64,000 nucleotides of DNA from Micromonospora ureilytica (lineage in GTDB: Bacteria > Actinomycetota > Actinomycetes > Mycobacteriales > Micromonosporaceae). The notes beneath the pieces were generated by a model, which saw only the letters and a program-made list of their open reading frames with translations, had not been told where the DNA came from and made no database searches. Made by a program: the position numbers and the translations under genes. The DNA is taken from NCBI RefSeq assembly GCF_015751765.1, contig NZ_JADOTX010000001.1, positions 1,302,001-1,366,000 on the forward strand, read 5' to 3'. Below, piece after piece: positions 31,694 to 44,484 of this stretch (its first letter is position 1; each line of letters starts with the position of its first letter).

Positions 31694-33142
31694 ATGACCG
31701 AGACACTGAGCTGGAACGCCGACAGCGACCTGCACCCCCCGCTCGCACGGAGGTCGCCTGACCGACGGTTCGACGTCGACCGCTGGCAGCGGCGGCTCGA
31801 CGAGCTGTGCCACCACCACCACGTCCCCGGCGCGAGCCTGGCCGTGCTGCTCGACGGGCAGGTCCACGAGCTGGCCAGCGGGGTGTTGCACCGCGGCACC
31901 GGCGTGGCGGTCACGCCGGACTCGGTGTTCCTGTCCGGCTCGATCGCCAAGGTCTACACCGCGACACTCATCATGCGGCTCGCCGACGAGGGAAAGCTGG
32001 ACCTGAACGCGCCGGTCGTGGACGTGCTGCCGGAGTTCGCCACCCCCGACGCCGAGGCGACCAGGACGATCACCATCCGGCAGTTGCTGTCCCACACCGG
32101 CGGCGTGACAAACGACTTCAACTTCGACGGCGGCCGGGGTGACGACTGCCTCGCCAGGTACGTCAGCGCCGCCCGACGGGTGGCGCTGGACTGCCCGCCC
32201 GGCACGGCCATCTCGTACGGCGGGCTCGGCTACATCGTCCTGGGCCGGGTCATCGAAAAGCTCACCGGCCTCACCTGGGACCAGGCCCTCAAGAGCCTCC
32301 TGTTCGAGCCGCTCGGCCTGGAACGCTCGATGACGCTGCCGGAGGAGGCCCTGCGCTTCCCCGTCGCCATGAGCCACCTCGGCGAATCCGGCGACTATCC
32401 CGACCCGGCCCCGTCCTGGGACCTGATGCCCCGCTCCATGGGTCCGGCGGGACGGGTCATCGTCTCCGCCGGCGACATGGCCCGCTTCGCCCGGATGCAT
32501 CTCGACGGCGGCCTCGCGCCCGACGGCACCCGGGTGCTGTCCACCGATGCGGTCGCCGCCATGCGACACCGCGCGGTCGACGTGCCCGACAAGTGGACGG
32601 TGAGCGCCGACGGGTGGGGTCTGGGTTGGACGCTCTACGACTGGGACGGCATCTCCGGCTACGGTCACGACGGTGCGGCCATCGGCCAGTACGCGTACCT
32701 GCGTGTCGTTCCGCACGCGAACCTCGCCCTGGCCCTGATGACCAACGGCGGCGCCGCCCGGCTGCTCTACGCCGACCTGTTCCGCGACCTGCTCACCGAA
32801 CTCGCCGACGTGACAATGCCCGCGCCGTTCGCCCCGGCCCCGGTGCCACCCCCGATCGACCTCGAACCGTTGCTCGGCACGTACCGGCGCGAGGGTGTCG
32901 TCCTCACCGTCTCCCGCACGGACGACGGCTCGCCGCATCTGCGCTACGAGTTTGTCGACGACATGGTGGACATGTCCCCGCCTCTGGAGATGGACCTGGA
33001 ACCGGTCACCGCAACGGTCTTCGCCGCCTCCGGCGCGGGGCCGTCGTTCAGCGAGGACTACATGCCTGTGGTCTTTTCCACCCTCACCAACGGCACGCAG
33101 GTCTGTTACGTGGGTATGCGCGCCACTCCCAAGGTCGCCTGA
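31694..33142 (+). CDS. serine hydrolase of the beta-lactamase/penicillin-binding class C type
   Basis: This 482-residue protein has a class C serine-hydrolase domain: SIAK at residues 83-86 gives the nucleophile S83 and base K86, and GHDG in the third position is the usual HxG. The second motif, normally YxN, is YGG here (in AISYGGLGY), so the Asn is lost. No signal peptide is visible, so it may act in the cytoplasm as an esterase or peptidase rather than as a beta-lactamase. The last 100 residues form a separate beta-rich domain. GAAGGGAAG precedes the ATG. Confidence 0.8.
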   Translation: MTETLSWNADSDLHPPLARRSPDRRFDVDRWQRRLDELCHHHHVPGASLAVLLDGQVHELASGVLHRGTGVAVTPDSVFLSGSIAKVYTATLIMRLADEGKLDLNAPVVDVLPEFATPDAEATRTITIRQLLSHTGGVTNDFNFDGGRGDDCLARYVSAARRVALDCPPGTAISYGGLGYIVLGRVIEKLTGLTWDQALKSLLFEPLGLERSMTLPEEALRFPVAMSHLGESGDYPDPAPSWDLMPRSMGPAGRVIVSAGDMARFARMHLDGGLAPDGTRVLSTDAVAAMRHRAVDVPDKWTVSADGWGLGWTLYDWDGISGYGHDGAAIGQYAYLRVVPHANLALALMTNGGAARLLYADLFRDLLTELADVTMPAPFAPAPVPPPIDLEPLLGTYRREGVVLTVSRTDDGSPHLRYEFVDDMVDMSPPLEMDLEPVTATVFAASGAGPSFSEDYMPVVFSTLTNGTQVCYVGMRATPKVA

Positions 33143-33279: not shown

Positions 33280-34305
33280 GTGATGAAGGACCAGCGTGCT
33301 GCCGCCCAGTCGACTCAGGACCGACAGGCCGCCGAGAGGTTCGCCGAACAGCTACGGACCCTGCGGACCGCCGCGGGCGACCCGTCGTTCCGGAAGATGG
33401 CCGGGCGGTCGGGCCGGATCTCGCACACCACGCTGCACGAGGCCGCCGCCGGGACCAGGTTTCCCTCCTGGGAGACGGTCCGGGAGTTCGTCCGAGCATG
33501 CGAGGCGGACGAGGTGCAATGGCGGCGTCGCTGGGAGGAAGCACACCGCCCCGGGACGCTCCACGGCATTGGGAACGACGATGCCGCACCGGTCAGCACC
33601 GATGCCCCGACCGGCGCCGAAACCTCGACCACCACGGCGGAGAGCAAGCCCGACACCGGGACCGACGCCCCGCAGGCCCACGGGTCCGGCGTGCCCGCGA
33701 CGTCACCCGGCGAGCCGGGCGCGCTGCGGGCCACCGTGTACCCGCCGACCGACGAGGAGGCGGGTGCACGGCGGCACCGGCTGCCGTGGCTCGCCGCCGC
33801 CGCGGTGGTCCTTGTGGTGGCGATGGTCGCCGTCCTGGGCGTCATCGTCCGCGAGCGGTCGTCCCGGGACAACTCCGGCGCGGCGGCGGCGTCGTCCGCA
33901 CCGTCGGCGTCGGCCTCGCCGTCAGCGTCAGCGTTCTCGGACGCGTTGATCGCTGGCGACTCGAGCAAGTTCATCTCCGACGTCACCATCCCCGACGGCA
34001 CGCGGGTGCGGGTGAACTCCCAGTTCGTCAAGGTGTGGGCCCTCAAGAACGTGGGCAAGGTCGCCTGGCACAACCGTTTCCTCGCGCGGACCAACCCAAC
34101 CGCCGACGCCGACGGTTGCCAGGTGCCGGAGCGGGTGGCGATCGGTGACACACCGCCCGACGAGCAGGTCATGATCAGTGTTGAGGTCACCGCGCCGAGC
34201 CGCCCCGGAAAGTGCTGGGTCAGCTGGAAGATGGTCGACGAGAACGGGCAGGAGTACTTTCCCACCCGCCGGCCGGTGTACTTCATGGTCACCGTCACCG
34301 CCTGA
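33280..34305 (+). CDS. HTH, membrane segment and NBR1-Ig-like extracellular domain
   Basis: This 341-residue protein combines a cytoplasmic XRE-like helix-turn-helix (about 17-90: FAEQLRTLRTAAGDPSFRKMAGRSG, SHTTLHEAAAGTRFPSWETVREFV) with a disordered linker, one membrane helix (about 170-189) and an outer beta-sandwich (about 225-341) with the NBR1/FW-type motif WALKNVGKVAW. Such fusions are found in actinobacteria and their role is not established. The gene begins at GTG 33280 or ATG 33283, with GGGGGAG immediately upstream. Its position before three wall-enzyme genes suggests a sensor or scaffold for the cell envelope. Confidence 0.72.
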   Translation: MMKDQRAAAQSTQDRQAAERFAEQLRTLRTAAGDPSFRKMAGRSGRISHTTLHEAAAGTRFPSWETVREFVRACEADEVQWRRRWEEAHRPGTLHGIGNDDAAPVSTDAPTGAETSTTTAESKPDTGTDAPQAHGSGVPATSPGEPGALRATVYPPTDEEAGARRHRLPWLAAAAVVLVVAMVAVLGVIVRERSSRDNSGAAAASSAPSASASPSASAFSDALIAGDSSKFISDVTIPDGTRVRVNSQFVKVWALKNVGKVAWHNRFLARTNPTADADGCQVPERVAIGDTPPDEQVMISVEVTAPSRPGKCWVSWKMVDENGQEYFPTRRPVYFMVTVTA

Positions 34306-34511
34306 GTGCGCTCCCCGGTCGCCCCGACCGGTGTCAGAGCGCGAACCGTCGATGTCAGTCCCGGGTGCCACCAAAGCTGACAACACCACATTCATCGAGG
34401 TCGGTGACGGCCTGACGGATCTGACAGGACGGCAGGGGTACCGAACAGCAGGCCGGTTCTCGCAAGGTGATGTCCGTTCGAACGACTCACCAACTGCGAG
34501 GAGGATCGGCA

Positions 34512-35375
34512 GTGCGCCGTACCTGGTTATCCGTCGGGCTCGCCGCGCTCTGCGTGACCGTCGGCGTCCCGGCCCAGGCGTGGGCCGCGACATCCGGCGC
34601 CACAGCGCAGCGAACCGTCACCACGGCGGCGCGGCCCGTCGTGGACATGGAGGCCACCGTCCTGGCCGCCCAGATCGACCCCCGCCGCGCCGACAACACA
34701 CTGACCCCGGGCGCGAAGAACTCCGTGCTCGCCGTCGAACAGGCGCTCCAGGCGCAGAAGCTGCTGAACGCGCAGTGGGTCGACGGCTACTTCGGCACCC
34801 AGACCGTCTCGGCGTACGCGGCGTACCAACGCTCACTCGGCTACACGGGGCTGGCCGCGAACGGGCTGCCCGGCACCACGTCGCTGACGAAGCTCGGGCA
34901 GAACCGCTACACCGTCGCCAAGACGATCGGTCCGGGCGCGAAGGTCCCGCGTGACGGGTACGTCGTCAACGCCCGTACGCAGGCCATGTTGGCGGCGGCC
35001 CAGCGTCTGCTCGGCTACACCCTGGTGCTCGACCAGGGCTCGTACAACCCCGGGGGCGATCCCACCTCGGCCGGTACGCACGACGGCGGGGGTGTGGTGG
35101 ACATCGCGGTCACCGGCATGACCGCGGCCACGCGCACCGCCGTCGCCCGGGCCCTGCGCCAGGTCGGCTTCGCCGCCTGGGTCCGCAACCCGAATCAGGG
35201 CGACTGGCCGTGGCACATCCACGCCACGGCGATCAACGACACCGACCTGTCCAACCAGGCACAGCACCAGGTCGGCGACTACTACCTCGGCATGAACGGC
35301 CTGGCCAACCAGGGGCCGGACGACGGCCCCCAGGTCCCGATCAAGACCTGGGAGCAGTACCAGCGCGGGCAGTGA
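34512..35375 (+). CDS. secreted peptidoglycan-binding protein with M15-like peptidase fold
   Basis: This 287-residue exported protein has a signal peptide (to about residue 26, AWAATS), a peptidoglycan-binding-1-like repeat region (VEQALQAQKLLNAQWVDGYFGTQTVSAYAAYQ) and a C-terminal domain with zinc-site-like motifs HDGGGVVDIAV and WPWHIHA. The pattern HxxGxxxD with WHIH is that of M15/VanY-like peptidases, which cut cell-wall peptides. The GTG at 34512 is used because GAGGAGG stands 7 bases before it. It starts a three-gene set with the M23 and SpoIID proteins. Confidence 0.72.
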   Translation: MRRTWLSVGLAALCVTVGVPAQAWAATSGATAQRTVTTAARPVVDMEATVLAAQIDPRRADNTLTPGAKNSVLAVEQALQAQKLLNAQWVDGYFGTQTVSAYAAYQRSLGYTGLAANGLPGTTSLTKLGQNRYTVAKTIGPGAKVPRDGYVVNARTQAMLAAAQRLLGYTLVLDQGSYNPGGDPTSAGTHDGGGVVDIAVTGMTAATRTAVARALRQVGFAAWVRNPNQGDWPWHIHATAINDTDLSNQAQHQVGDYYLGMNGLANQGPDDGPQVPIKTWEQYQRGQ

Positions 35376-35407
35376 CCCGCACCCCTCACCGTTTCCGAAA
35401 GGACACC

Positions 35408-36292
35408 ATGAACATCCGTAAGAGCCTTGCCGCCGCCGGCATCGCGCTGGCCGCGACGACCTCGATCCTCAGTGTCGGATCGCCCGCGTCGGCGGCGGCC
35501 CGTGACGGGGTCTGCGACAGCGGCGAGTTCTGCTACTACTACAACAGCGACAACGCGGGATCGATCTCGGACTTCACCGGTTCGCTCGACGACTACGGCA
35601 CCGAGCAGCCCTCGTGCTACGACTTCAAGGGCACTGGCGCTGGCAAGGGCCTGTGCATCAAGAACGAGGCCGCCTCGGTCTGGAACCGCAGCACCAAGAC
35701 CGTACGCGTCTACTTCAACAGCGGCTACGCCGGTTCTTACCAGGACTTCGCGGCCGGTGCGAAGGCAAACCTCAACGCCACGCTGAAGAACAACAACGCC
35801 TCGCACCAGTTCTCGCCGTCGACGCGCACGAACCTGTCGTACGCCCTTTACCAGGCCAGCGGCGGCACTGTCACGTGCGGCTTCGACGGTTACACCACCA
35901 CGCCCGGCCGGCACGAGGGCATCGACATCGCCCGCAGCGTCGGCTCGGACGTGCGCGCCCTGGTCTCCGGAACTGTCATCTACGTCGCGCGGGGCAATAC
36001 CGGCAGCGGCGGCCTGTCCACGATCTCGGTCTACAACTCCTCGCTCAACAAGTCGGTGATCTACCTGCACACCGCGCCGAAGTCCGCGGTGAGCGTGGGC
36101 GACGCCATCAGCAAGGGCGAGATCATCGCCGATGAGTCGTGGCACGGAGTGTCCTCCAGCTCGGGAGCGCACACCCACGTCGAGGTCCGGGCCGGCCGGC
36201 AGACCCATGCGGCCGTCAGCGTCGGCGACTCCACCCTGGACAACGCCGACCCGACCGCGTTCTGGAACTCCCAGGGCTACAACGAGAAGTAG
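35408..36292 (+). CDS. I36-type beta-gamma-crystallin-like domain plus M23 peptidase
   Basis: This 294-residue exported protein has a signal peptide (to about residue 31), a peptidase-inhibitor I36-type domain (about 34-135, Cys-containing, CDSGEFCYYYNS) and an M23 LytM-like domain with zinc motifs RHEGIDIA and HTHVEV. M23 enzymes cut peptide bridges in peptidoglycan. The I36 fold here may bind wall or regulate the enzyme. The first domain is nearly repeated in the next gene. The gene lies 32 bases after the M15-like gene. Confidence 0.85.
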   Translation: MNIRKSLAAAGIALAATTSILSVGSPASAAARDGVCDSGEFCYYYNSDNAGSISDFTGSLDDYGTEQPSCYDFKGTGAGKGLCIKNEAASVWNRSTKTVRVYFNSGYAGSYQDFAAGAKANLNATLKNNNASHQFSPSTRTNLSYALYQASGGTVTCGFDGYTTTPGRHEGIDIARSVGSDVRALVSGTVIYVARGNTGSGGLSTISVYNSSLNKSVIYLHTAPKSAVSVGDAISKGEIIADESWHGVSSSSGAHTHVEVRAGRQTHAAVSVGDSTLDNADPTAFWNSQGYNEK

Positions 36293-36298
36293 GACGCC

Positions 36299-37222
36299 AT
36301 GAATATCCGCAAGGGCCTCGCCGTCGTCGGCGCCGTCCTCGCCATGTCCACCTCCATCCTCACTGTTTCGTCGCCGGCAGCGGCGGCCGAACGGGACGGA
36401 ACCTGCGACAGCGGCGAGTTCTGCTACTACTACAACAGCAATCAGGCGGGCTCGGTCTCCGACTTCACCGACTCACTGGACGACTACGGTACGACCCAGC
36501 CGACCTGCTACGACTTCAAGGGCGCGGGCAGCGGCAAGGGCCTGTGCGTGAAGAACAACGCCGCGTCGGTCTGGAACCGCACCAGCAAGAGCGTGCGGGT
36601 CTGGTTCAACAGCAACTTCGCCGGTGCGAGCCAGGTCTTCGCGGCCGGGGCGATGGCAAACCTCAACGCCACGCTGAAGAACAACAACGCCTCGCACGAG
36701 TTGGTGAGCGGGCCGACGGGTTGTACCACCGACGGCACCAACAGCAAGCTGCCGAGCACCATCCTCGTCTACCGGGTCAGTCTCGGGCGTGTCGACCGGG
36801 TCGATTTCAAGACGTACGTCAAGAACGTCCTCCCGAACGAGTGGGTGACGAGCTGGCCGGCCGCCTCGCTGGATGCCGGTGCGATGGCCGTCAAGAGTTA
36901 CGGCTGGTACTGGGCGTTGCACTCGACCCGGAAGACGTCCGGCGGACAGTGCTACGACGTCCGGGACGACACCGGCGACCAGGTCTACCGGCCATCGTCG
37001 GCAGTCTCGTCCACGTCCGCCGCGGTGGACCGGACGTGGTCGGCCCGGATGACCCGCAGCGGCAACATCCTGCGAGCGCACTACTGCGCGACGACGACCG
37101 CGTGCGGTGGTTGGGTGGACGGGGACTGGCTGTCGCAGTACGGCTCGCGTGATCTCGCGAACGAGGGCAAGAACTACCAGGCGATCCTGCGCTACTACTA
37201 CGGCGACATCGCGCTCTCCTGA
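36299..37222 (+). CDS. I36-type domain plus SpoIID-like domain
   Basis: This 307-residue exported protein starts with a signal peptide and the same I36-type domain as the previous gene (long blocks of identical DNA), followed by a SpoIID/LytB-like domain (about 155-305: VDFKTYVKNVLPNEW, AGAMAVKSYGWYWAL). SpoIID proteins are lytic transglycosylases acting on denuded glycan. The catalytic Glu may be E181 of PNEW, but this is uncertain. It starts 6 bases after the M23 gene's stop and is clearly co-transcribed. Confidence 0.8.
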   Translation: MNIRKGLAVVGAVLAMSTSILTVSSPAAAAERDGTCDSGEFCYYYNSNQAGSVSDFTDSLDDYGTTQPTCYDFKGAGSGKGLCVKNNAASVWNRTSKSVRVWFNSNFAGASQVFAAGAMANLNATLKNNNASHELVSGPTGCTTDGTNSKLPSTILVYRVSLGRVDRVDFKTYVKNVLPNEWVTSWPAASLDAGAMAVKSYGWYWALHSTRKTSGGQCYDVRDDTGDQVYRPSSAVSSTSAAVDRTWSARMTRSGNILRAHYCATTTACGGWVDGDWLSQYGSRDLANEGKNYQAILRYYYGDIALS

Positions 37223-37246
37223 GGTCGATCACCAAACCGCACCAAC

Positions 37247-37282
37247 CGCGCCGCCAGCCGCAGATCCGCGGCGGGCGGCGCG
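37247..37282. terminator. hairpin between convergent genes
   Basis: CGCGCCGCC at 37247-37255 pairs with GGCGGCGCG at 37274-37282 around an 18-base loop, between the SpoIID and dehydrogenase stop codons. Confidence 0.55.
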
Positions 37283-37301
37283 CTCGTGACTACGGCACCG
37301 G

Positions 37302-40169
37302 CTACGCGGGCGGCTCGATCGCCTCGACGAGCACCTCGAGTACATGCCGGTATGGCTGGCCGGTGGCCCGGCTCATGCCCATCTCGCAGGTGCGGTTGCA
37401 GGAGGCGTACGCGTCGTGGTCACGCTGATTGATCTCAGCGGCCTGCGCCGCGGTGGCGCCGGCGGTGACCTCGGGATGCAGCAGCCCCCGGTCACCGGCG
37501 AAGGCGCAGCACCCCCAGCTGTCCGGCACGGTGACCGTGTCGGCGACCGCCTGGGCCACCGTGCGCAGGTCGTCGATGCCGCCCAGGTGCACTGTGGAGC
37601 AGGTCGGGTGCAGGGCCAGCGAGCCCAGTCGCTGGGGCTGCGGCAGCGCCGGCAGGAGGTGTTCGGCGGTGAAGGTCACGCTGTCGACGAAGCGCAACGC
37701 GGCGTACCGTGCCCGGTCCTCCTCGGCCAGCGCGGCGGTGAGCTGCGTCAGCCCGTGCGTGCACGATGACGCGTCGCACACGACGGGCAGGCGACCCTCG
37801 TCGCTGGCCGCCCAAAGCACGGCAAGGGTCCGCTCGGCCATCTCGCGGTGGCCGGCGGGGTAGCCCTTGGACTGCCACGGCGTTCCGCAGCACAGCCCGG
37901 CCGTGCCGGTCGGTACGACGAGCGGCACCCCCGCCAGTTCGCAGAGACGCAGGAACGCCGCCGCCGAACCGCCGGACGAGCCGTCCTCCGGTGCGAAGAG
38001 GCTGCCGACGCAGGCCGCGAAGAACACCGCCTGGGCGTCCGGCGTGTTGCGGGGTGCGGGGCGGGGCGCGCCGGCGCGCGGCATGTCGTCGCTCCACGCC
38101 GGCACGAGTTCGGTGGCGCCGAGCCCACGGATCATCCCGGTGGCGGCGCGGGTCACCGGCGTCGGTACGGCGTGCGCGGCGGTCAGTCCCATCCGGACGC
38201 CCGTCACGGCGGCCTGCCAGTGGCGCGCGGCGGTGCGGGCGGTGCGCTGGGCGCGAGGGGGGTGCCGCTCGGCGCGTAGCCGCTTCATCGCCGCTCCGGT
38301 GTCGATGCCGACCGGGCAGGCGGTGACGCAGAGGCTGTCCGCGGCGCAGCTGTCCACCGCGGCGTACTCGTAGTCGGCGGTCAGCTCCCGGCGGCGCTCC
38401 TCGTCGCCGGCGGCGGTGGCGAGGGCGATCTGCCGTTGCAGGACGATGCGCTGGCGGGGGGTGGTGGTGACGTCGGCGGTGGGGCAGACCGGCTCGCAGT
38501 AGCCACACTCGACGCAGGCGTCCAACTCGGGGTCGACAGTCGGGACGGCCTTGAGCTGCCGCAGGTGCACTGTCGGGTCGTCGTTGAGCAGCACACCGGG
38601 GTTGAGCAGGCCGCTCGGGTCGCACAACCGCTTGAGTTCGCGCATCACGTCGTACAACTCGTCGCCGTACTGTCGGCGGACGAAGGGCGCCATGGCCCGG
38701 CCGGTGCCGTGCTCCGCCTTGAGTGTTCCCCCTTCCGCCAGCACCAGGTCGACCATGTCGTCGGTGAATCGGGCGTAGCGGTCGATCTCGGCCGGGGTGT
38801 CGAAGGACTGGGTCAGCATGAAGTGCAGGTTGCCGTCCCGGGCGTGGCCGAAGATCACCGCGTCCGGGTAGCCGTGTCTGTCGAACAGGCGGATCAGCCC
38901 GTCGCAGGTGCCGGTCAGGCGTGGCATCGGCACCGCGACGTCCTCCAGCAGGGCCGTGGTGCCGGGCGGGCGGGCCCCGGCGACGGCGGTGTAGAGGCCC
39001 TTGCGCAGGTGCCAGAGGTTGGCCCGTTCGCGCGGGTCGCGGGTCAGCTCGGTGCCGGCGACGGCCGGCAGCCGATCGAGCACGGGCCGGGCGTCGGCAA
39101 GCGTCGCGGCCAGCCGCTCCGCGCTGTCCTCGGCGAACTCCACAAGCAGCGCGGCGTGGCCGGTGACCGTCAAACCGCGCAGGGCCGGGCTCGCACCCGG
39201 GTCACGCTGGCTGACCCGCAGCGCGGCCGCGTCGAGCAGTTCGGCGGTACGGGCGCCGACGGCGAGCAGGGCCGGCAGCGCGTCGGTGGCGTCGGTGAGA
39301 CCGGGCAGGATCAGCAGGCCGGTGGCGGCGTGGTCGTGGATCTCGACGGTACGGAAGACGGCCTCGGCCACGAAGCCGAGCGTGCCCTCGCTGCCGATCA
39401 TCAGGTGGGCGAGCATCTCGACCGGGGTGCTGTGGTCGAGCAGCGAGTTCAGCCCGTACCCCATGGTGTTCTTCATCGCGAACAGTCGCTCGATGGTGGC
39501 GCGTGACCCCGGCGCCGAGCGCACCCGGTCGCGCAGCCGCAGCAGCCCGGCGTGCAGCTCGGGCTCGTCGGCCCGCAGCCGGGCGTCGGCGTCGCGGGCG
39601 CCGGAGTCGACGACGGTGCCGGACGGCAGCACGAAGCGCAGCGACTCCATGGTGCGGTACGCGTTGTCGGTGGTGCCGCAGGTCATCCCGCTGGAGTTGT
39701 TGGCCACCATGCCACCGACCGTGCAGGCGGCCTCGCTGGCCGGATCCGGGCCGAGCCGGCGTCGGTAGCGGGCCAGCCGAGCGTTGGCCTGCCGGATCGT
39801 CAGGCCCGGCTGGAGCCGGATGCGGCGGCCATCGTCGAGGACCTCGGCGTGCCGCCAGTCGGTGCGGACGTCGACAAGCACTCCCGCGCCGCCGGCCTGC
39901 CCGGCGAGGCTGGTGCCGCCGCCGCGCAGGGTCAGCGGCACGCCGGCCTCCCGGGCGCCCGCCATCAACGCCCCCACCTCGGCCGCCGAGGCGGCGCGAA
40001 CCACTGCCTGCGGCTCGAACAGGTACGGCGAGGCGTCGTGCGCCGCCGCCAGCCTCCGGGGCAGCTCGGCGCTGGCCCGGCTCGGATCATCGAGGCGCGA
40101 GCGCAGCAGCTCGGCGACCTCGCGGGCGCGAGCGCCGGCCGCGGTCGGTGTGGGTACGACTGTACTCAT
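37302..40169 (-). CDS. FAD/Fe-S D-lactate dehydrogenase-type oxidoreductase
   Basis: This 955-residue cytoplasmic or membrane-associated protein has an FAD_binding_4 domain (about 50-260; RGGGTSLAGQAGGAGV), a GlcD/lactate-type oxidase C-domain (about 280-550; GHARDGNLHFMLTQ), two 4Fe-4S motifs (CVECGYCEPVCP and CAADSLCVTACPVG) and CCG-type cysteine repeats (GLCCGTPW, WGCCAFAGDRG). It resembles iron-sulphur D-lactate/D-2-hydroxyacid dehydrogenases. It follows anmK by 26 bases. MurQ yields D-lactate, so this enzyme could pass that to pyruvate; the substrate is inferred from position. The ATG at 40169 follows AGGAGG. Confidence 0.83.
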   Translation of the reverse strand: MSTVVPTPTAAGARAREVAELLRSRLDDPSRASAELPRRLAAAHDASPYLFEPQAVVRAASAAEVGALMAGAREAGVPLTLRGGGTSLAGQAGGAGVLVDVRTDWRHAEVLDDGRRIRLQPGLTIRQANARLARYRRRLGPDPASEAACTVGGMVANNSSGMTCGTTDNAYRTMESLRFVLPSGTVVDSGARDADARLRADEPELHAGLLRLRDRVRSAPGSRATIERLFAMKNTMGYGLNSLLDHSTPVEMLAHLMIGSEGTLGFVAEAVFRTVEIHDHAATGLLILPGLTDATDALPALLAVGARTAELLDAAALRVSQRDPGASPALRGLTVTGHAALLVEFAEDSAERLAATLADARPVLDRLPAVAGTELTRDPRERANLWHLRKGLYTAVAGARPPGTTALLEDVAVPMPRLTGTCDGLIRLFDRHGYPDAVIFGHARDGNLHFMLTQSFDTPAEIDRYARFTDDMVDLVLAEGGTLKAEHGTGRAMAPFVRRQYGDELYDVMRELKRLCDPSGLLNPGVLLNDDPTVHLRQLKAVPTVDPELDACVECGYCEPVCPTADVTTTPRQRIVLQRQIALATAAGDEERRRELTADYEYAAVDSCAADSLCVTACPVGIDTGAAMKRLRAERHPPRAQRTARTAARHWQAAVTGVRMGLTAAHAVPTPVTRAATGMIRGLGATELVPAWSDDMPRAGAPRPAPRNTPDAQAVFFAACVGSLFAPEDGSSGGSAAAFLRLCELAGVPLVVPTGTAGLCCGTPWQSKGYPAGHREMAERTLAVLWAASDEGRLPVVCDASSCTHGLTQLTAALAEEDRARYAALRFVDSVTFTAEHLLPALPQPQRLGSLALHPTCSTVHLGGIDDLRTVAQAVADTVTVPDSWGCCAFAGDRGLLHPEVTAGATAAQAAEINQRDHDAYASCNRTCEMGMSRATGQPYRHVLEVLVEAIEPPA

Positions 40170-40195
40170 TGGGCGGATCCTCCTGGGAGGGGTGA

Positions 40196-41380
40196 TCAGT
40201 CGGCCACCGGGGACGCGACGACCAGCAACCGGGCAGGAGCGGTGCTGACCGGGGCGGGCAGCCGCAGCGGCTGCCGACCGGGGGTGATGCTGCCGAGCAC
40301 GGAGGCGTGCCGCGCGCCGGTGCCCGACGGCAGCGCGCCGGGCAGTCCGTGCACGGTCAGGTAACCCAGCAGCGCGAAGGCCAGCGCCTCCTTGGCGTCC
40401 GACGCGATGCCCAGGTCGTCGCTGGACGACAGGTGGACGCCGGGCAGCTCGTCGGCGATCATGCGCATCAGCGTCGGGTTGCGCGCCCCGCCGCCGGAGA
40501 CGACGAGCCGGGTGACGCCGTGGTTGCGGCAGGCCCCGGCCACCGTGACCGCCGTCAGCCGGGTGAGCGTGGCCAACACGTCCTGCGGGTCCGGCGTGGG
40601 CGCGTCGGCGAGAGCGGCGAGCAGGTAGGGAAGATGGAACAGCTCCTTCCCGGTGCTCTTCGGGCCGGGCAGCCGGTAGTACGGCTCGTCGAGCAGCCGC
40701 CGCAGCAGGTCGGGGTTCACCTGCCCGGCGGCCGCCCCGCGCCCGTCCCGGTCGTACTCCTCGGTGCCTCCGCTGAAGTGGCGCGCGGCGGCGTCGAGGA
40801 GCGCGTTGGCCGGGCCGGTGTCGAACGCGAGCGGGTCCGCGTCCGGCGCGACGACTGTGATGTTGGCGATGCCACCCAGGTTCAGGGCGGCCGGGACGCC
40901 GGGCAGGCCACCCAGCAGCAGTGCGTCGAAGAGGGCGACCAGGGGAGCGCCCTGACCGCCGGCGGCGACGTCGCGGCTGCGCAGGTCGGACACGACCGGA
41001 AGGCCGGTGGCCTCCGCGATCCAGGCGGGCTGGCCCAGCTGGAGAGTGCCCCGAACCGTGCCAGCCTCGACCCAGTGGTGCATGGTCTGCCCGTGCGAGA
41101 CGACCAGGTCGGCGTTGCCGTCGCACAGCTCAGCGAGGGCCCGCACGCCGGCCTCGGCGAAGGCCTGGCCGATGCCGGTGTCCAGCACGCAGATCGCCTC
41201 GGTGGTGGTCGGCGCGGGCGGCAGGGCGGCGGCGATCTGCGTGCGCAGCTCGTCGGAGTACGGGTGGCTGAGCCGCCCCAGCGGTCGCAGCCGCACTGTG
41301 TCGCCGCTCAGGTCGAGCTCGGCGGCGGCGGCTTCGATGCCGTCGTAGGAGGTTCCGGACATCAGGCCGATCACGCGCAT
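40196..41380 (-). CDS. anmK: anhydro-N-acetylmuramic acid kinase
   Basis: AnmK phosphorylates 1,6-anhydro-MurNAc and opens the anhydro ring, giving MurNAc-6-phosphate in peptidoglycan recycling. The 394-residue protein has the family signature GLMSGTSYDGIE at residues 5-16 (E. coli has GTSLDG), NLGGIANIT and FDTGPANALLDA, the ASKHA-type nucleotide and sugar contacts. AAGGAGG lies 5 bases before the ATG at 41380. It sits between the symporter (11 bases upstream) and the FAD/Fe-S dehydrogenase in one operon, with murQ divergent. Confidence 0.92.
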   Translation of the reverse strand: MRVIGLMSGTSYDGIEAAAAELDLSGDTVRLRPLGRLSHPYSDELRTQIAAALPPAPTTTEAICVLDTGIGQAFAEAGVRALAELCDGNADLVVSHGQTMHHWVEAGTVRGTLQLGQPAWIAEATGLPVVSDLRSRDVAAGGQGAPLVALFDALLLGGLPGVPAALNLGGIANITVVAPDADPLAFDTGPANALLDAAARHFSGGTEEYDRDGRGAAAGQVNPDLLRRLLDEPYYRLPGPKSTGKELFHLPYLLAALADAPTPDPQDVLATLTRLTAVTVAGACRNHGVTRLVVSGGGARNPTLMRMIADELPGVHLSSSDDLGIASDAKEALAFALLGYLTVHGLPGALPSGTGARHASVLGSITPGRQPLRLPAPVSTAPARLLVVASPVAD

Positions 41381-41391
41381 CAGGTCCTCCT

Positions 41392-42951
41392 TCAGGCCCG
41401 GCCGGCGGGCGCCGCCGCGTCGTCGACCTCGTCGGTGCGTCCATGGTCGTACGGCGTCTCCGGGGCCGGGTGGAACCGGCTGGACACCGCGCCGACGACC
41501 AGGGTGATCAGGACGCCGATCGGGACCAGCCACTGCGCGGCGATGGCGGTGGCGGTGGTGGTCCCGGCCGTCGTCACGTCGATCTTGACGTACCGGACGA
41601 TGTAGGTCATCACCGCCACGGTGACGAGGAAGGCGATCACCGCGTCGACCTGGTTGGCCCGCTTGACGAGACGGCCGAGCAGGAAGGCCCCGAGCAGCGC
41701 CCCGTAGGTGTAGCCGGCAATGGTCAAACCGGTCAGGTAGACGTTTCCGGTGCTGGAGCTGAACGCGCAGGCGAAGACCGCCATCAGCACCGCCCAGACC
41801 AGGGTCATCACCCGGGCGAGCCGGAGCATCGCGTCGTCGGACGGGACCTTGCGGAAGAAGCTGTGGATGAAGTCGGCGACCGTGGAGTTCGACATCGAGT
41901 TCAGCGCCGAGGACAGCGAACCCATCGCGGCGCCGAGGATGCCGGCCACGAGCAGACCCGAGATGCCCACCGGCAGGGCGTGCAGGATGAAGCTCGGGTA
42001 GAGGTTGTCGCTACTGGCCAGGCCGAGTTCCTTGAAGGTCTGACCCTTGTTGTACGACCACAGCAGCGCGCCGACCAGGGAGAACGCCGCGAACTGGATC
42101 ACCACGAAGATGCCCGAGGAGATCATCGCCTTCTGCCCCTCGCGCAGCGTGCGGGTGGACAGGATGCGCTGGACGATCAGCTGGTCCGACCCGTGGCTGG
42201 CCATCGCGAAGATCGCGCCACCGATGATCGCGGTCGGCAGGGCGAACGGGCTGGTGAGCACGTGCGCGAGCGCGAAGTTGGTGTCGAAGAGCTGGAACTT
42301 GCCGGCGTCGAGCGCCTGCGAGTAGCCGTCGAAGCCGACGGCGTGGCTGAGCACCGCGATGGCCAGGATCGCCCCGCCCAGGTACAGCCCCATCTGGATG
42401 GCGTCGGTCCAGATGACCGCCTTGATGCCACCGAGGTAGGTGTAGACCACAGTGATGAGCGTCAGAACGATGATGATCGCCTGGTAGCCGACCTGAAGCC
42501 CGAACTCGTCGAGGAGAAGCTTGATGGGGATGGCCGAGGCGAACAGCCGTACGCCCTCGGCGAGTAGGCGGGTGAAGACGAACGTCACCGACGCCAGACC
42601 CTGCAGTTTCAGGCCAAACCGCTCACCGAGGTACTGGTAGGCGCTGACGAACCCGCCCCGCTTGTAGAGCGGGATGAGCACCGCGGCCACGACGACCCGA
42701 CCGATGACGTAGCCCAGGGCCAGCTCGACGTTGCCGAAGCCCTGGCCGCTGTAGGCGCCGCCGGGCACGCTGATCACGGTCAGGACGCTGGTTTCGGTGG
42801 CGACCACCGAGAACGAGACGGTCCACCAGGGCAGTCGCCCCTCGCCCACGAAGTAGTCCTTGGCGGACTTCTGTTTGCCGGACAGGCGTAGTCCGACGAA
42901 GGCGATCACCACGAGGTACAGCACGATCACGACGAGGTCGAGTTGACGCAC
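41392..42951 (-). CDS. SSS family sodium/solute symporter
   Basis: This 519-residue protein has about 13 membrane helices and the sodium:solute symporter signature (GGIKAVIWTDAIQ; GILGAAMGSLSSALNSMSNSTVADF). It imports a solute with sodium; its place between murQ and anmK suggests MurNAc, anhydro-MurNAc or a muropeptide sugar. The GTG at 42951 is preferred because AGGGAGCG lies 3 bases before it; an in-frame TTG at 42978 gives a 9-residue longer form. Confidence 0.88.
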   Translation of the reverse strand: MRQLDLVVIVLYLVVIAFVGLRLSGKQKSAKDYFVGEGRLPWWTVSFSVVATETSVLTVISVPGGAYSGQGFGNVELALGYVIGRVVVAAVLIPLYKRGGFVSAYQYLGERFGLKLQGLASVTFVFTRLLAEGVRLFASAIPIKLLLDEFGLQVGYQAIIIVLTLITVVYTYLGGIKAVIWTDAIQMGLYLGGAILAIAVLSHAVGFDGYSQALDAGKFQLFDTNFALAHVLTSPFALPTAIIGGAIFAMASHGSDQLIVQRILSTRTLREGQKAMISSGIFVVIQFAAFSLVGALLWSYNKGQTFKELGLASSDNLYPSFILHALPVGISGLLVAGILGAAMGSLSSALNSMSNSTVADFIHSFFRKVPSDDAMLRLARVMTLVWAVLMAVFACAFSSSTGNVYLTGLTIAGYTYGALLGAFLLGRLVKRANQVDAVIAFLVTVAVMTYIVRYVKIDVTTAGTTTATAIAAQWLVPIGVLITLVVGAVSSRFHPAPETPYDHGRTDEVDDAAAPAGRA

Positions 42952-43002
42952 GGCTCGCTCCCTACCAGGGGTTGTCAATAAGTGACGTTAGCCGAGAGTA
43001 AC

Positions 43003-43016
43003 GCGAAACTTTTTGC
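43003..43016. promoter_or_regulatory. weak dyad in murQ/symporter promoter region
   Basis: GCGAAACTTTTTGC has imperfect dyad symmetry (GC-AAA/TTT-GC) and sits in the 254-base gap 42952-43205. RpiR-type regulators of amino sugar genes bind similar GAAA/TTTC sites, but no such regulator is in the window. Confidence 0.25.
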
Positions 43017-43205
43017 CACCGCCCCTCCGGGCTGGTTACGCTGTGGTTTCAGCCTGCTGATACGGGGACTGTTCGCAGCTGCGCCTCGGCCTGGCTGCGG
43101 CTGCGGGCCGCGAGGACGCGCTCGACGGCGAGCCGCCGCCGGGCGACCGGAGCATCTCTCCCCGTTGGCCGGCGACTGCACACCAGCGAGAGGAACGAGC
43201 ACCCC

Positions 43206-44099
43206 GTGGACCTCAGCACCCTCGGCACCGAGACCCGCAACGACAAGACCAGCGACCTCGACCGGATGTCTCCCACCGAGTTGCTTCTCGCGATGAACGA
43301 CGAGGACCAGACAGTCGCCGCCGCCGTCCGCCGGGCCGTGCCGGACATCGCCGCCGCCGTCGACGTCATCGTGGCGTCGCTCCGCCAGGGCGGACGGCTG
43401 ATCTACCTGGGCGCCGGCACCAGCGGACGGATCGGCATGCTCGACGCCGTCGAGATCCCACCCACCTTCGGTACGACGCCCGACCGGGTCGTCGGTCTGC
43501 TCGCCGGCGGGGCACGAGCCTTCGGCGTCGCCGTCGAGGGCGCGGAGGACGACCCGACCCGCGCCGTCGCCGACCTCGACGAGGTCGGCCTGACCGCCCG
43601 CGACACGGTGGTCGGGCTCGCTGCCAGCGGCCGTACCCCGTACGTGGTCGGTGGGTTGGATCACGCCCGCGCGCGCGGCGCGGCGACCGTCTCCGTGGCC
43701 TGCAACACCAACGCGGTGACCAGTCGCCACGCCGACGTCGCCATCGAGGTGCCCACCGGCCCCGAGGTGCTCACCGGCTCCACCCGGCTCAAGGCCGGCA
43801 CCGCCGAGAAGCTGGTCTGCAACATGCTCTCCACCGCAGCGATGGCCCGGCTCGGCAAGGTCTACGGCAACCTGATGGTGGACATGAACGCCACAAACGA
43901 GAAGCTCGTCGACCGGGCGCGTCGGATCGTCGCCGAGGCCGCCGACACCGACCTCGACACGGCCGCGCGGGCTCTCGCGGCGGCCCACGGGCACGCCAAG
44001 ACGGCCATCGTGCTGCTCCTGGCGAACTGCACCGCCGAGGAGGCCGCGGCCCGGCTGCGCGCCGCCGCCGACGACGTCCGGGCGGCCGTCGCGGCCTGA
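43206..44099 (+). CDS. murQ: N-acetylmuramic acid 6-phosphate etherase
   Basis: MurQ splits MurNAc-6-phosphate into GlcNAc-6-phosphate and D-lactate in the cytoplasm. The 297-residue protein has the SIS-fold site GAGTSGRIGMLDAVEIPPTFG (with the catalytic Glu in AVEIPP), VEGAEDD, ASGRTPYV and GPEVLTGSTRLKAGTAEKL, all close to the well-studied E. coli enzyme. It starts with GTG at 43206 after AGAGGAA. It is divergent from the symporter-anmK-dehydrogenase operon and ends at a strong hairpin. Confidence 0.93.
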   Translation: MDLSTLGTETRNDKTSDLDRMSPTELLLAMNDEDQTVAAAVRRAVPDIAAAVDVIVASLRQGGRLIYLGAGTSGRIGMLDAVEIPPTFGTTPDRVVGLLAGGARAFGVAVEGAEDDPTRAVADLDEVGLTARDTVVGLAASGRTPYVVGGLDHARARGAATVSVACNTNAVTSRHADVAIEVPTGPEVLTGSTRLKAGTAEKLVCNMLSTAAMARLGKVYGNLMVDMNATNEKLVDRARRIVAEAADTDLDTAARALAAAHGHAKTAIVLLLANCTAEEAAARLRAAADDVRAAVAA

Positions 44100-44159
44100 C
44101 CCACCATGGCAGGCCTCGGCCGGGTGATCTTCCGCCTGGCGACGGTGCGACCAGATTGA

Positions 44160-44194
44160 CGAAGCGCCCCCTCCGTTGCGGACGGGGCGCTTCG
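44160..44194. terminator. strong hairpin terminator
   Basis: CGAAGCGCCCC pairs with GGGGCGCTTCG, and an inner TCCG/CGGA stem closes the loop, between murQ and the convergent small gene. Confidence 0.8.
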
Positions 44195-44199
44195 TGGTG

Positions 44200-44484
44200 T
44201 CAGTCGAGCTGTGTGTCCGGAACCGTTCGGTCCTCGTCCGCGTCGCCGTCGGGGGAGCTGGCCAGCTCGATCCGGGGGGACCGATCCGGCGGGAGGTGTG
44301 CGAAGTCGGCGATGACGACGACATCCACCTCTCCGTCGATCATCGTCTGCTCGACGGTCTCCCACGGTGCCCGCATGATTCCGGAGAATCGGTAGGAGTG
44401 TTCGCGAAGGTGGCTGAGGCACCTCGCGACGGCGGGCTCCGACGGCTCGATGTGGGCGGGAATCCAGATAACGGCGATTTCCAT
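44200..44484 (-). CDS. small hypothetical protein
   Basis: This 94-residue protein has an N-terminal alpha/beta region with two hydrophobic strands (MEIAVIWIP and EVDVVVIADFAHLPP) and an acidic tail. The pattern is faintly like the N-terminus of serine recombinases (a strand ending in ADxxxL), but it has no catalytic Ser motif, so I treat it as unknown. A good AGGAGAGG site stands before the ATG at 44484. Confidence 0.55.
   Translation of the reverse strand: MEIAVIWIPAHIEPSEPAVARCLSHLREHSYRFSGIMRAPWETVEQTMIDGEVDVVVIADFAHLPPDRSPRIELASSPDGDADEDRTVPDTQLD

Follow-up and report, generated by a model that had tools for sequence, protein, structure and literature searches.

Do neighbouring genes for cell-wall degradation and for amino-sugar salvage form one system, and which protein would bring the sugar into the cell? 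This question is raised by an eight-gene locus of Micromonospora ureilytica, which lies at positions 33,280 to 44,099 of a 64,000-nucleotide stretch (contig NZ_JADOTX010000001.1, 1,302,001 to 1,366,000) of a complete 7.10 Mb genome (GCF_015751765.1; G000 in our numbering, in which G and L mark sampled genomes and loci). The whole stretch is called the window here, and all coordinates follow its numbering unless a locus is named. An earlier note, made from the letters alone, had described four co-oriented wall genes converging on a symporter-anmK-dehydrogenase operon with a divergent murQ, and had joined the two halves into one system. Genes here are 90% or more identical to those of named Micromonospora, in line with the genus. 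The eight genes, with their order, strands and coordinates, are borne out by gene calling, and seven of the eight labels by Pfam and NCBIfam models; the label that fell was 'M15-like', which has a motif and no family model behind it. The locus as a whole is probably composed of two units, one of which is an apparently acquired muramic-sugar salvage operon.

The sugar half occupies window 37302-44099. On the reverse strand lie the genes for a symporter of the SSS family (41392..42951), for the anhydro-N-acetylmuramic acid (anhydro-MurNAc) kinase AnmK (40196..41380) and for a flavin adenine dinucleotide (FAD) and iron-sulfur (Fe-S) D-2-hydroxyacid dehydrogenase (37302..40169), with the starts of symporter (42951) and dehydrogenase (40169) taken from the gene caller. 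Gaps of 11 bp between symporter and anmK and 26 bp between anmK and the dehydrogenase gene fit an operon; murQ, encoding the MurNAc 6-phosphate (MurNAc-6-P) etherase (43206..44099, forward strand), diverges from the symporter across a 254-bp gap. The evidence supports operon and divergent murQ as one catabolic unit whose parts fit one pathway, and gene neighbourhoods in sampled actinobacteria uphold the four genes as the salvage unit that had been proposed. Families were assigned with Pfam and NCBIfam models, and structural relatives by sequence and profile comparison against the Protein Data Bank (PDB). AnmK reaches 623 bits with its NCBIfam model, far over the cut-off of 440, and keeps the counterparts of D182 and E326 in 3qbw (hand count on an alignment), which we take to be the catalytic Asp and Glu. 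MurQ reaches 370.8 bits with TIGR00274 (cut-off 302), and two Glu, presumably active-site residues, are conserved in its alignment to 4s12 and 4lzj.

In the pathway proposed, the sodium symporter would import anhydro-MurNAc, and possibly MurNAc too; AnmK would phosphorylate anhydro-MurNAc to MurNAc-6-P, MurQ would split this into N-acetylglucosamine (GlcNAc) 6-phosphate and D-lactate, the FAD/Fe-S enzyme would oxidise D-lactate to pyruvate, and a MurR-type repressor would act at an inverted repeat between symporter and murQ. The transport substrate and the enzyme activities in this scheme are predicted from sequence. Excerpts of published work report that MurQ releases D-lactate and that AnmK leads to the MurQ substrate (PMC5061867, PMC3022706).

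The symporter matches PF00474 (113 bits) and TIGR00813 (186 bits, cut-off 184), and strong neighbourhood evidence points to its subfamily as a muramic-sugar importer. In a class-level scan of 276 genomes per query, with expect-value cut-offs of 1e-50 for AnmK, 1e-100 for the symporter subfamily and 1e-90 for the dehydrogenase, AnmK was found in 51 genomes and the symporter subfamily in 11. All 11 have AnmK, and in ten the two genes are co-oriented neighbours with gaps below 200 bp, in either order; the exception (G462) carries the arrangement kinase-MurQ-symporter (L207). An order-level scan of 397 genomes found the symporter in 96, including 12 Micromonospora, and 40 of the 84 non-Micromonospora loci were read, a non-random choice picked to spread over genera (one genome of this sample, G429, occurs also in the class set). 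AnmK is co-oriented within 300 bp of the symporter in 35 of these loci and lies 1.2-2.2 kb off in three; two have no AnmK in the stretch, of which one, from a family-f2 genome (L163), reads major facilitator superfamily protein-kinase-symporter-murR-murQ, and in the other (L194) no gene was recognised by the queries used. The link of the symporter to AnmK or MurQ is supported in the sampled actinobacteria, with AnmK adjacent in 10/11 class genomes and near in 38/40 order loci. Record names with the subfamily include Streptomyces, Kitasatospora, Microbispora, Nocardia, Mycolicibacterium smegmatis (79% identical symporter), Micromonospora and a further family of the same order. Taken with these neighbours, the symporter is predicted to be a sodium-coupled (anhydro-)MurNAc importer. 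A wider proposal is that across actinobacteria these AnmK-linked SSS symporters are specialised in the sodium-coupled import of free anhydro-MurNAc, with a built-in D-lactate dehydrogenase in the fullest versions; we judge its prospects to be evenly balanced.

Single loci add variety to this setting. One (L164) holds genes for GH3, a beta-lactamase-family protein, NamZ, the symporter, an SIS protein, a NagA-like amidohydrolase, AnmK and a kinase-MurQ fusion; in the last (L164 13489-15318, 610 amino acids) a BadF-type kinase domain is fused to a MurQ-type etherase, and similar genes of about 600 amino acids occur in L166 and L167. Seven GH3 matches occur in the window genome, and three of these show a signature that we take to be NagZ-like; such enzymes could be a source of free sugar. 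In a draft of Micromonospora arida (L034 2856-5296), no symporter gene separates murQ from anmK, and only a few hundred bases remain there.

The dehydrogenase joins FAD_binding_4, FAD-oxidase_C, 4Fe-4S and CCG domains in one chain (Pfam), and a PDB match to 8jdc, a D-lactate dehydrogenase, covers the C-terminal portion of the FAD half. The Shewanella Dld-II D-lactate dehydrogenase, as described in part of PMC4481167, has FAD_binding_4, FAD-oxidase_C and Fe-S domains as well, so that the likeness is one of domain set. Among the best 80 of 176 relatives, a set of named loci picked by closeness to this AnmK and biased to that AnmK type, the dehydrogenase stands by AnmK in 14/14 Micromonospora loci with room and in 24/59 other actinobacterial loci with room, twice as fragments (L060, L075); L107-L110 are omitted from these proximity counts and from those of the wall gene below. 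Elsewhere it follows anmK-murQ-nagB in Plantibacter and GH3-AnmK-symporter-MurQ-kinase in L203, and lies near AnmK-MurQ-ABC and murR in L211. Its place in a salvage setting, as the earlier note had supposed, is therefore supported by its recurrence in murQ clusters of four layouts, and the same enzyme accompanied by different transporters argues for D-lactate oxidation. The window enzyme is accordingly given here as a predicted D-lactate dehydrogenase of the Dld-II kind, which would clear the by-product of MurQ.

Several observations weigh against the assignment of this unit to muramic sugars. In the PDB, the nearest sequence relative of the symporter is a chain of SiaT (5nv9; PMC5931594, in part), a sialic acid symporter of the same family whose Na3 residues D182/S345/S346 and Na2 residue S343 are kept; however, S342 is replaced by Gly, and only two of five SiaT substrate residues are kept (S60, T63), T58, Q82 and the carboxylate-binding R135 being replaced (phmmer alignment, hand count), so that the carboxylate site of the symporter, if any, differs from that of SiaT. 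With three of five substrate residues different, SiaT-like sialic acid import was itself discarded as a leading view. The stretch 'ATETS' replaces the SiaT substrate stretch of the first transmembrane helix in 89 proteins, collected by a motif filter that itself demanded ATE[TS]S. MurQ lies within 8 kb in 4/40 order loci, and in the PDB search AnmK scores 216 bits with levoglucosan kinase versus 208 bits with AnmK, PF03702 also covering levoglucosan kinases. The last two results are what one would expect if the AnmK-like kinase and the symporter handled another 1,6-anhydro sugar, such as levoglucosan, at least where MurQ is absent. Yet several genomes have MurQ, MurR, a BadF-type kinase, NamZ or GH3 next to a symporter of this subfamily, the NCBIfam AnmK model is matched far over its cut-off, and this AnmK and a second type, about 60% identical, are never found together in Micromonospora; such a sugar is very unlikely to be the substrate.

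The symporter might instead import MurNAc (or GlcNAc) and leave AnmK to internal recycling. The loci L163 and L207, where it is paired with MurQ and a BadF-type kinase without an adjacent AnmK, favour this proposal, as does MurT of Tannerella, a member of the sodium symporter superfamily that imports MurNAc according to excerpts of PMC5790795. AnmK, however, is the commonest neighbour of the symporter (38/40 order loci), and a MurNAc kinase gene is missing from the window operon; the one clear BadF-type kinase of the genome, considered for this role, shares only 33% identity with its Streptomyces counterpart in a partial alignment and stays unproven in it. An importer of MurNAc alone thus seems a possible, though doubtful, description. 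As for the dehydrogenase, it is common within the class (62/276 genomes) and mostly unlinked, lying within 10 kb of AnmK in at least 3 of the 62 (G000, G428, G468), a lower bound since few candidates were scored per genome and linked paralogues may be missed; its top NCBIfam score is to YdiJ, at 160 bits far below the cut-off of 1350. Both facts would suit a D-2-hydroxyglutarate or glycolate dehydrogenase that is there by chance, which its presence near murQ in four distinct layouts and its co-occurrence with AnmK in 27/51 genomes (p = 8e-8, kinship uncorrected) make unlikely.

Control of the muramic-sugar operon is suggested by a two-arm inverted repeat, TGTCAATAAGTGAC ... GAAACTTTTTGCCA, at 42973..43018 between symporter and murQ, which is predicted to be a MurR-type operator. 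Thirty-five intergenic stretches leading from murR to kinase or symporter share ATGTCAATAAGTAAC ... TTTTTGAC, the 8-mers being present in 30/35 and 33/35, and the window repeat thus recurs in intergenic DNA next to murR in loci from Streptomycetaceae and Microbispora. In the window the second arm follows 18 bp after TGTCAATAAGTGAC; the first arm is exact in 13/15 Micromonospora stretches, window included, and no second exact site occurs in the window genome. The repeat is probably the target of a MurR-type repressor. Nine other sites carry two mismatches, and ten sites in all, versus eight for a reversed control, give no sign of a wider regulon. No adjacent murR was called in the window operon; among the 80 named loci, murR occurs in 40 and a BadF-type kinase in 25. 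Both are retained in many Streptomyces versions, such as the murR-kinase-symporter-anmK set of S. coelicoflavus NBRC 15399 (L069), and the Micromonospora operons have neither. The window genome has a second murR-murQ pair at C1:6846-6848 kb (L111), whose MurR is 51% identical to the Streptomyces one and whose murR is directly preceded on its 5' side by the near-palindrome TGAAAGTAAGTTTCA. A search of this native promoter for the shared operator turned up nothing better than weak matches at 2-3 mismatches, in smaller number than expected by chance for the stretch, so trans-acting control by the MurR of this second pair stays a guess.

Whether the wall half belongs to the same system was judged from relatives. 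A total of 101 Micromonospora genomes were scanned for this AnmK and for the Inhibitor_I36-SpoIID gene of the wall half at 80% identity or more, with partial matches (SpoIID fragments in G196 and G145, and I36-only matches) omitted from the wall-cluster counts. This AnmK was found in 15 genomes (90-100% identity across carriers; 94 and 85% for a split copy in G150), the wall gene in 14, and both in nine. The halves lie about 3 kb apart in six of the nine and are separated in three, being megabases apart on one contig in G150 and G152 and on different contigs of a draft in G144. Five of the 14 wall-gene genomes hold only the other AnmK type, and in six genomes the operon occurs but the wall gene does not; each of these is a draft in many contigs, so some of the absences may be assembly gaps.

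The relative G144 (L114) shows the wall cluster on its own. There the wall genes are followed directly by a small gene, g35, which in the window lies beyond murQ (44200..44484, reverse strand); by blastn, positions 1-245 of L114 11400-12015 correspond to window 37034-37288 and positions 293-616 to window 44158-44484. The 6.9-kb block between SpoIID and g35 (37289..44157) is absent, and 47 unaligned bases stand in its place; it is bounded by two hairpins. One hairpin, at 37247..37282 (self-complementary matches), separates the convergent wall genes and dehydrogenase, and is also present 3' of SpoIID in relatives without the sugar block there. The gene g35 is near the wall cluster in another such relative (L112), and in G150 it is close to the wall genes with three other genes between. 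The operon, for its part, is set among other neighbours in G150, G152, G161 and G144 (the last the same as L041 by coordinates), and its murQ-side flank is partly common to a second site (L043, L033). The simplest reading is that the locus consists of two units that happen to touch, a separate block having come beside the wall cluster in one subclade; this direction of the rearrangement is our inference.

The one-locus alternative, in which the salvage operon would live on muropeptides set free by the secreted wall enzymes, draws on the adjacency in six genomes and on co-occurrence of the halves in nine genomes versus about two expected (Fisher p = 3.5e-6), a result that counts against two independent units. 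The carrier genomes are related, so this p-value is overstated, and shared ancestry may explain the excess. SpoIID-type enzymes also produce anhydro ends, the substrate of AnmK. Against the alternative, the halves converge on a hairpin, the sugar-operon repeat was not found in the wall half even at 3 mismatches, and the wall gene is near AnmK in 0/56 other named actinobacterial loci with room. The earlier note had itself named relatives with the halves far apart as evidence against its proposal; they are apart in 3/9 Micromonospora genomes with both, a further five carry the wall gene but not this AnmK, and six (drafts) carry the operon but no wall gene. On the gene order of relatives the single system was rejected, and we regard it as quite improbable.

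How the operon entered the genus is indicated by the AnmK tree (54 rows kept, 19 AnmK rows missed by a motif filter, midpoint root; two long branches flagged by the tool, both outside the Micromonospora clade). In this tree the copies from Micromonospora make up a single clade (100/100) that falls inside the Streptomycetaceae and apart from other Micromonosporaceae AnmK; they group at 98/91 with Actinacidiphila rubida and an unplaced metagenome-assembled genome, and at 95/98 with 11 such rows in total. The other AnmK type occurs in 60 of the 101 Micromonospora genomes, this type in 15, neither in 26 and both in none. Three loci of the other type were read: L124 and L125 are without adjacent murQ, symporter and dehydrogenase, and L126 has murQ adjacent. 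The sugar unit is common to Micromonospora and Streptomyces, and the nesting of its AnmK suggests that one Micromonospora clade probably acquired the operon from a donor akin to Streptomycetaceae. In M. lupini (L097 10001-11163; L120, G150), anmK is split into two overlapping frames of 278 and 123 amino acids, and the surrounding genes look intact.

The four wall genes, all on the forward strand, are by gene content and order a separate cluster of mostly secreted enzymes, neighbour to the salvage unit. The first (33280..34305) encodes an HTH_31 domain (32.7 bits), a hydrophobic stretch and an NBR1-type Ig domain (N_BRCA1_IG, 62.7 bits), in keeping with its former label, the membrane stretch being judged by eye only; it stays together with the three genes that follow it in relatives where the halves are unlinked (L112-L119). 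The third (35408..36292) encodes a probably secreted endopeptidase with Inhibitor_I36 and Peptidase_M23 domains (Pfam), which aligns with LytM and lysostaphin. The fourth (36299..37222) encodes a probably secreted Inhibitor_I36 and SpoIID-type protein, presumably a lytic transglycosylase by family, whose SpoIID domain is above the family cut-off (PF08486, 43.7 bits, cut-off 23) and whose best PDB match is the spore cortex-lytic enzyme 9h68. The product of the second gene (34512..35375) is probably secreted as well; it carries a weak peptidoglycan-binding domain (PG_binding_1, 20.1 bits, under the cut-off of 23) and a motif H190-x6-D197...WPWHIH, invariant in an alignment of 40 (39 of 120 listed homologues and the query), which in our view resembles the M15 zinc ligands. 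Neither Pfam nor NCBIfam gave a match to an M15 model, a profile search of the PDB found no chain, and the M15 assignment, left with the motif as its only support, stays unproven. Homologues of this protein number 1819 at E<=1e-3 and are spread widely through Micromonosporaceae and other groups, with no catalytic family assigned among those listed, and a protein record named M. inaquosa (P0102) indicates that some strain of that species has such a gene. In M. inaquosa LB39 (L031 7634-8839), an IS605 OrfB/Cas12f-like transposon protein gene occupies the wall-cluster position. A serine hydrolase gene (31694-33142) was also considered as a cluster member and rejected, as it adjoins the wall genes in 1/7 linked named loci (L038), there as a fragment only.

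Related gene sets are found in Tannerella forsythia, of the Bacteroidota, and in Escherichia coli, which a control search found to have AnmK too, its gene presumably located outside the murQP-murR divergon. The T. forsythia murTKQ genes, in excerpts of PMC5790795 and PMC7670621, likewise place a muramic-sugar importer of the sodium symporter superfamily beside a kinase and MurQ, with no phosphotransferase system (PTS); they differ in that MurNAc is imported, MurK is inactive on anhydro-MurNAc and no AnmK is predicted, and those excerpts name no dehydrogenase. MurT and the window symporter are likened by superfamily and gene setting. The E. coli divergon shares MurQ, the divergent layout and MurR control with the window, whereas its importer is the PTS protein MurP and the excerpts of PMC5061867 name no SSS symporter or dehydrogenase; in Micromonospora, unlike E. 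coli, murR is far from the sugar operon. The murR-murQ pair SCO4308-SCO4307 of Streptomyces coelicolor, for which MurNAc recycling has been shown, resembles the second pair of the window genome, and the same excerpts report no MurP orthologue there and mention no symporter (PMC5061867).

Tannerella offers a precedent for a MurNAc importer from the sodium symporter superfamily that is accompanied by kinase and MurQ, so the kind of idea put forward here is not new. In the open-licence literature, searched mostly through listings, no account was found of AnmK paired with this symporter or of the dehydrogenase as a member of such an operon, which is weak evidence of absence. Excerpts of PMC7670621 report that E. 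coli is unable to grow on anhydro-MurNAc and only suggest a Tannerella transporter for it. A 2026 preprint calls the MurNAc transporter of mycobacteria unknown and lists AnmK, MurK and MurQ in M. smegmatis (PMC13041923, in part). An apparently complete classical recovery system of that species is itemised in the supplement of PMC6572805, according to part of its text, and some of the present findings may already be tabulated there.

The main new content is a candidate importer family that is open to test, together with a salvage operon that is real and wall genes that appear to be its neighbours. The presence of this operon in one Micromonospora clade, apart from the other kinase type, points to a way in which such a pathway may pass from one genus to another and displace the native kinase. 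For muramic-sugar uptake in actinobacteria without a MurP-type importer, the symporter subfamily is a candidate that offers one gene for genetic study; if the prediction is true, the AnmK-linked symporter would be the missing muramic-sugar importer of these bacteria.

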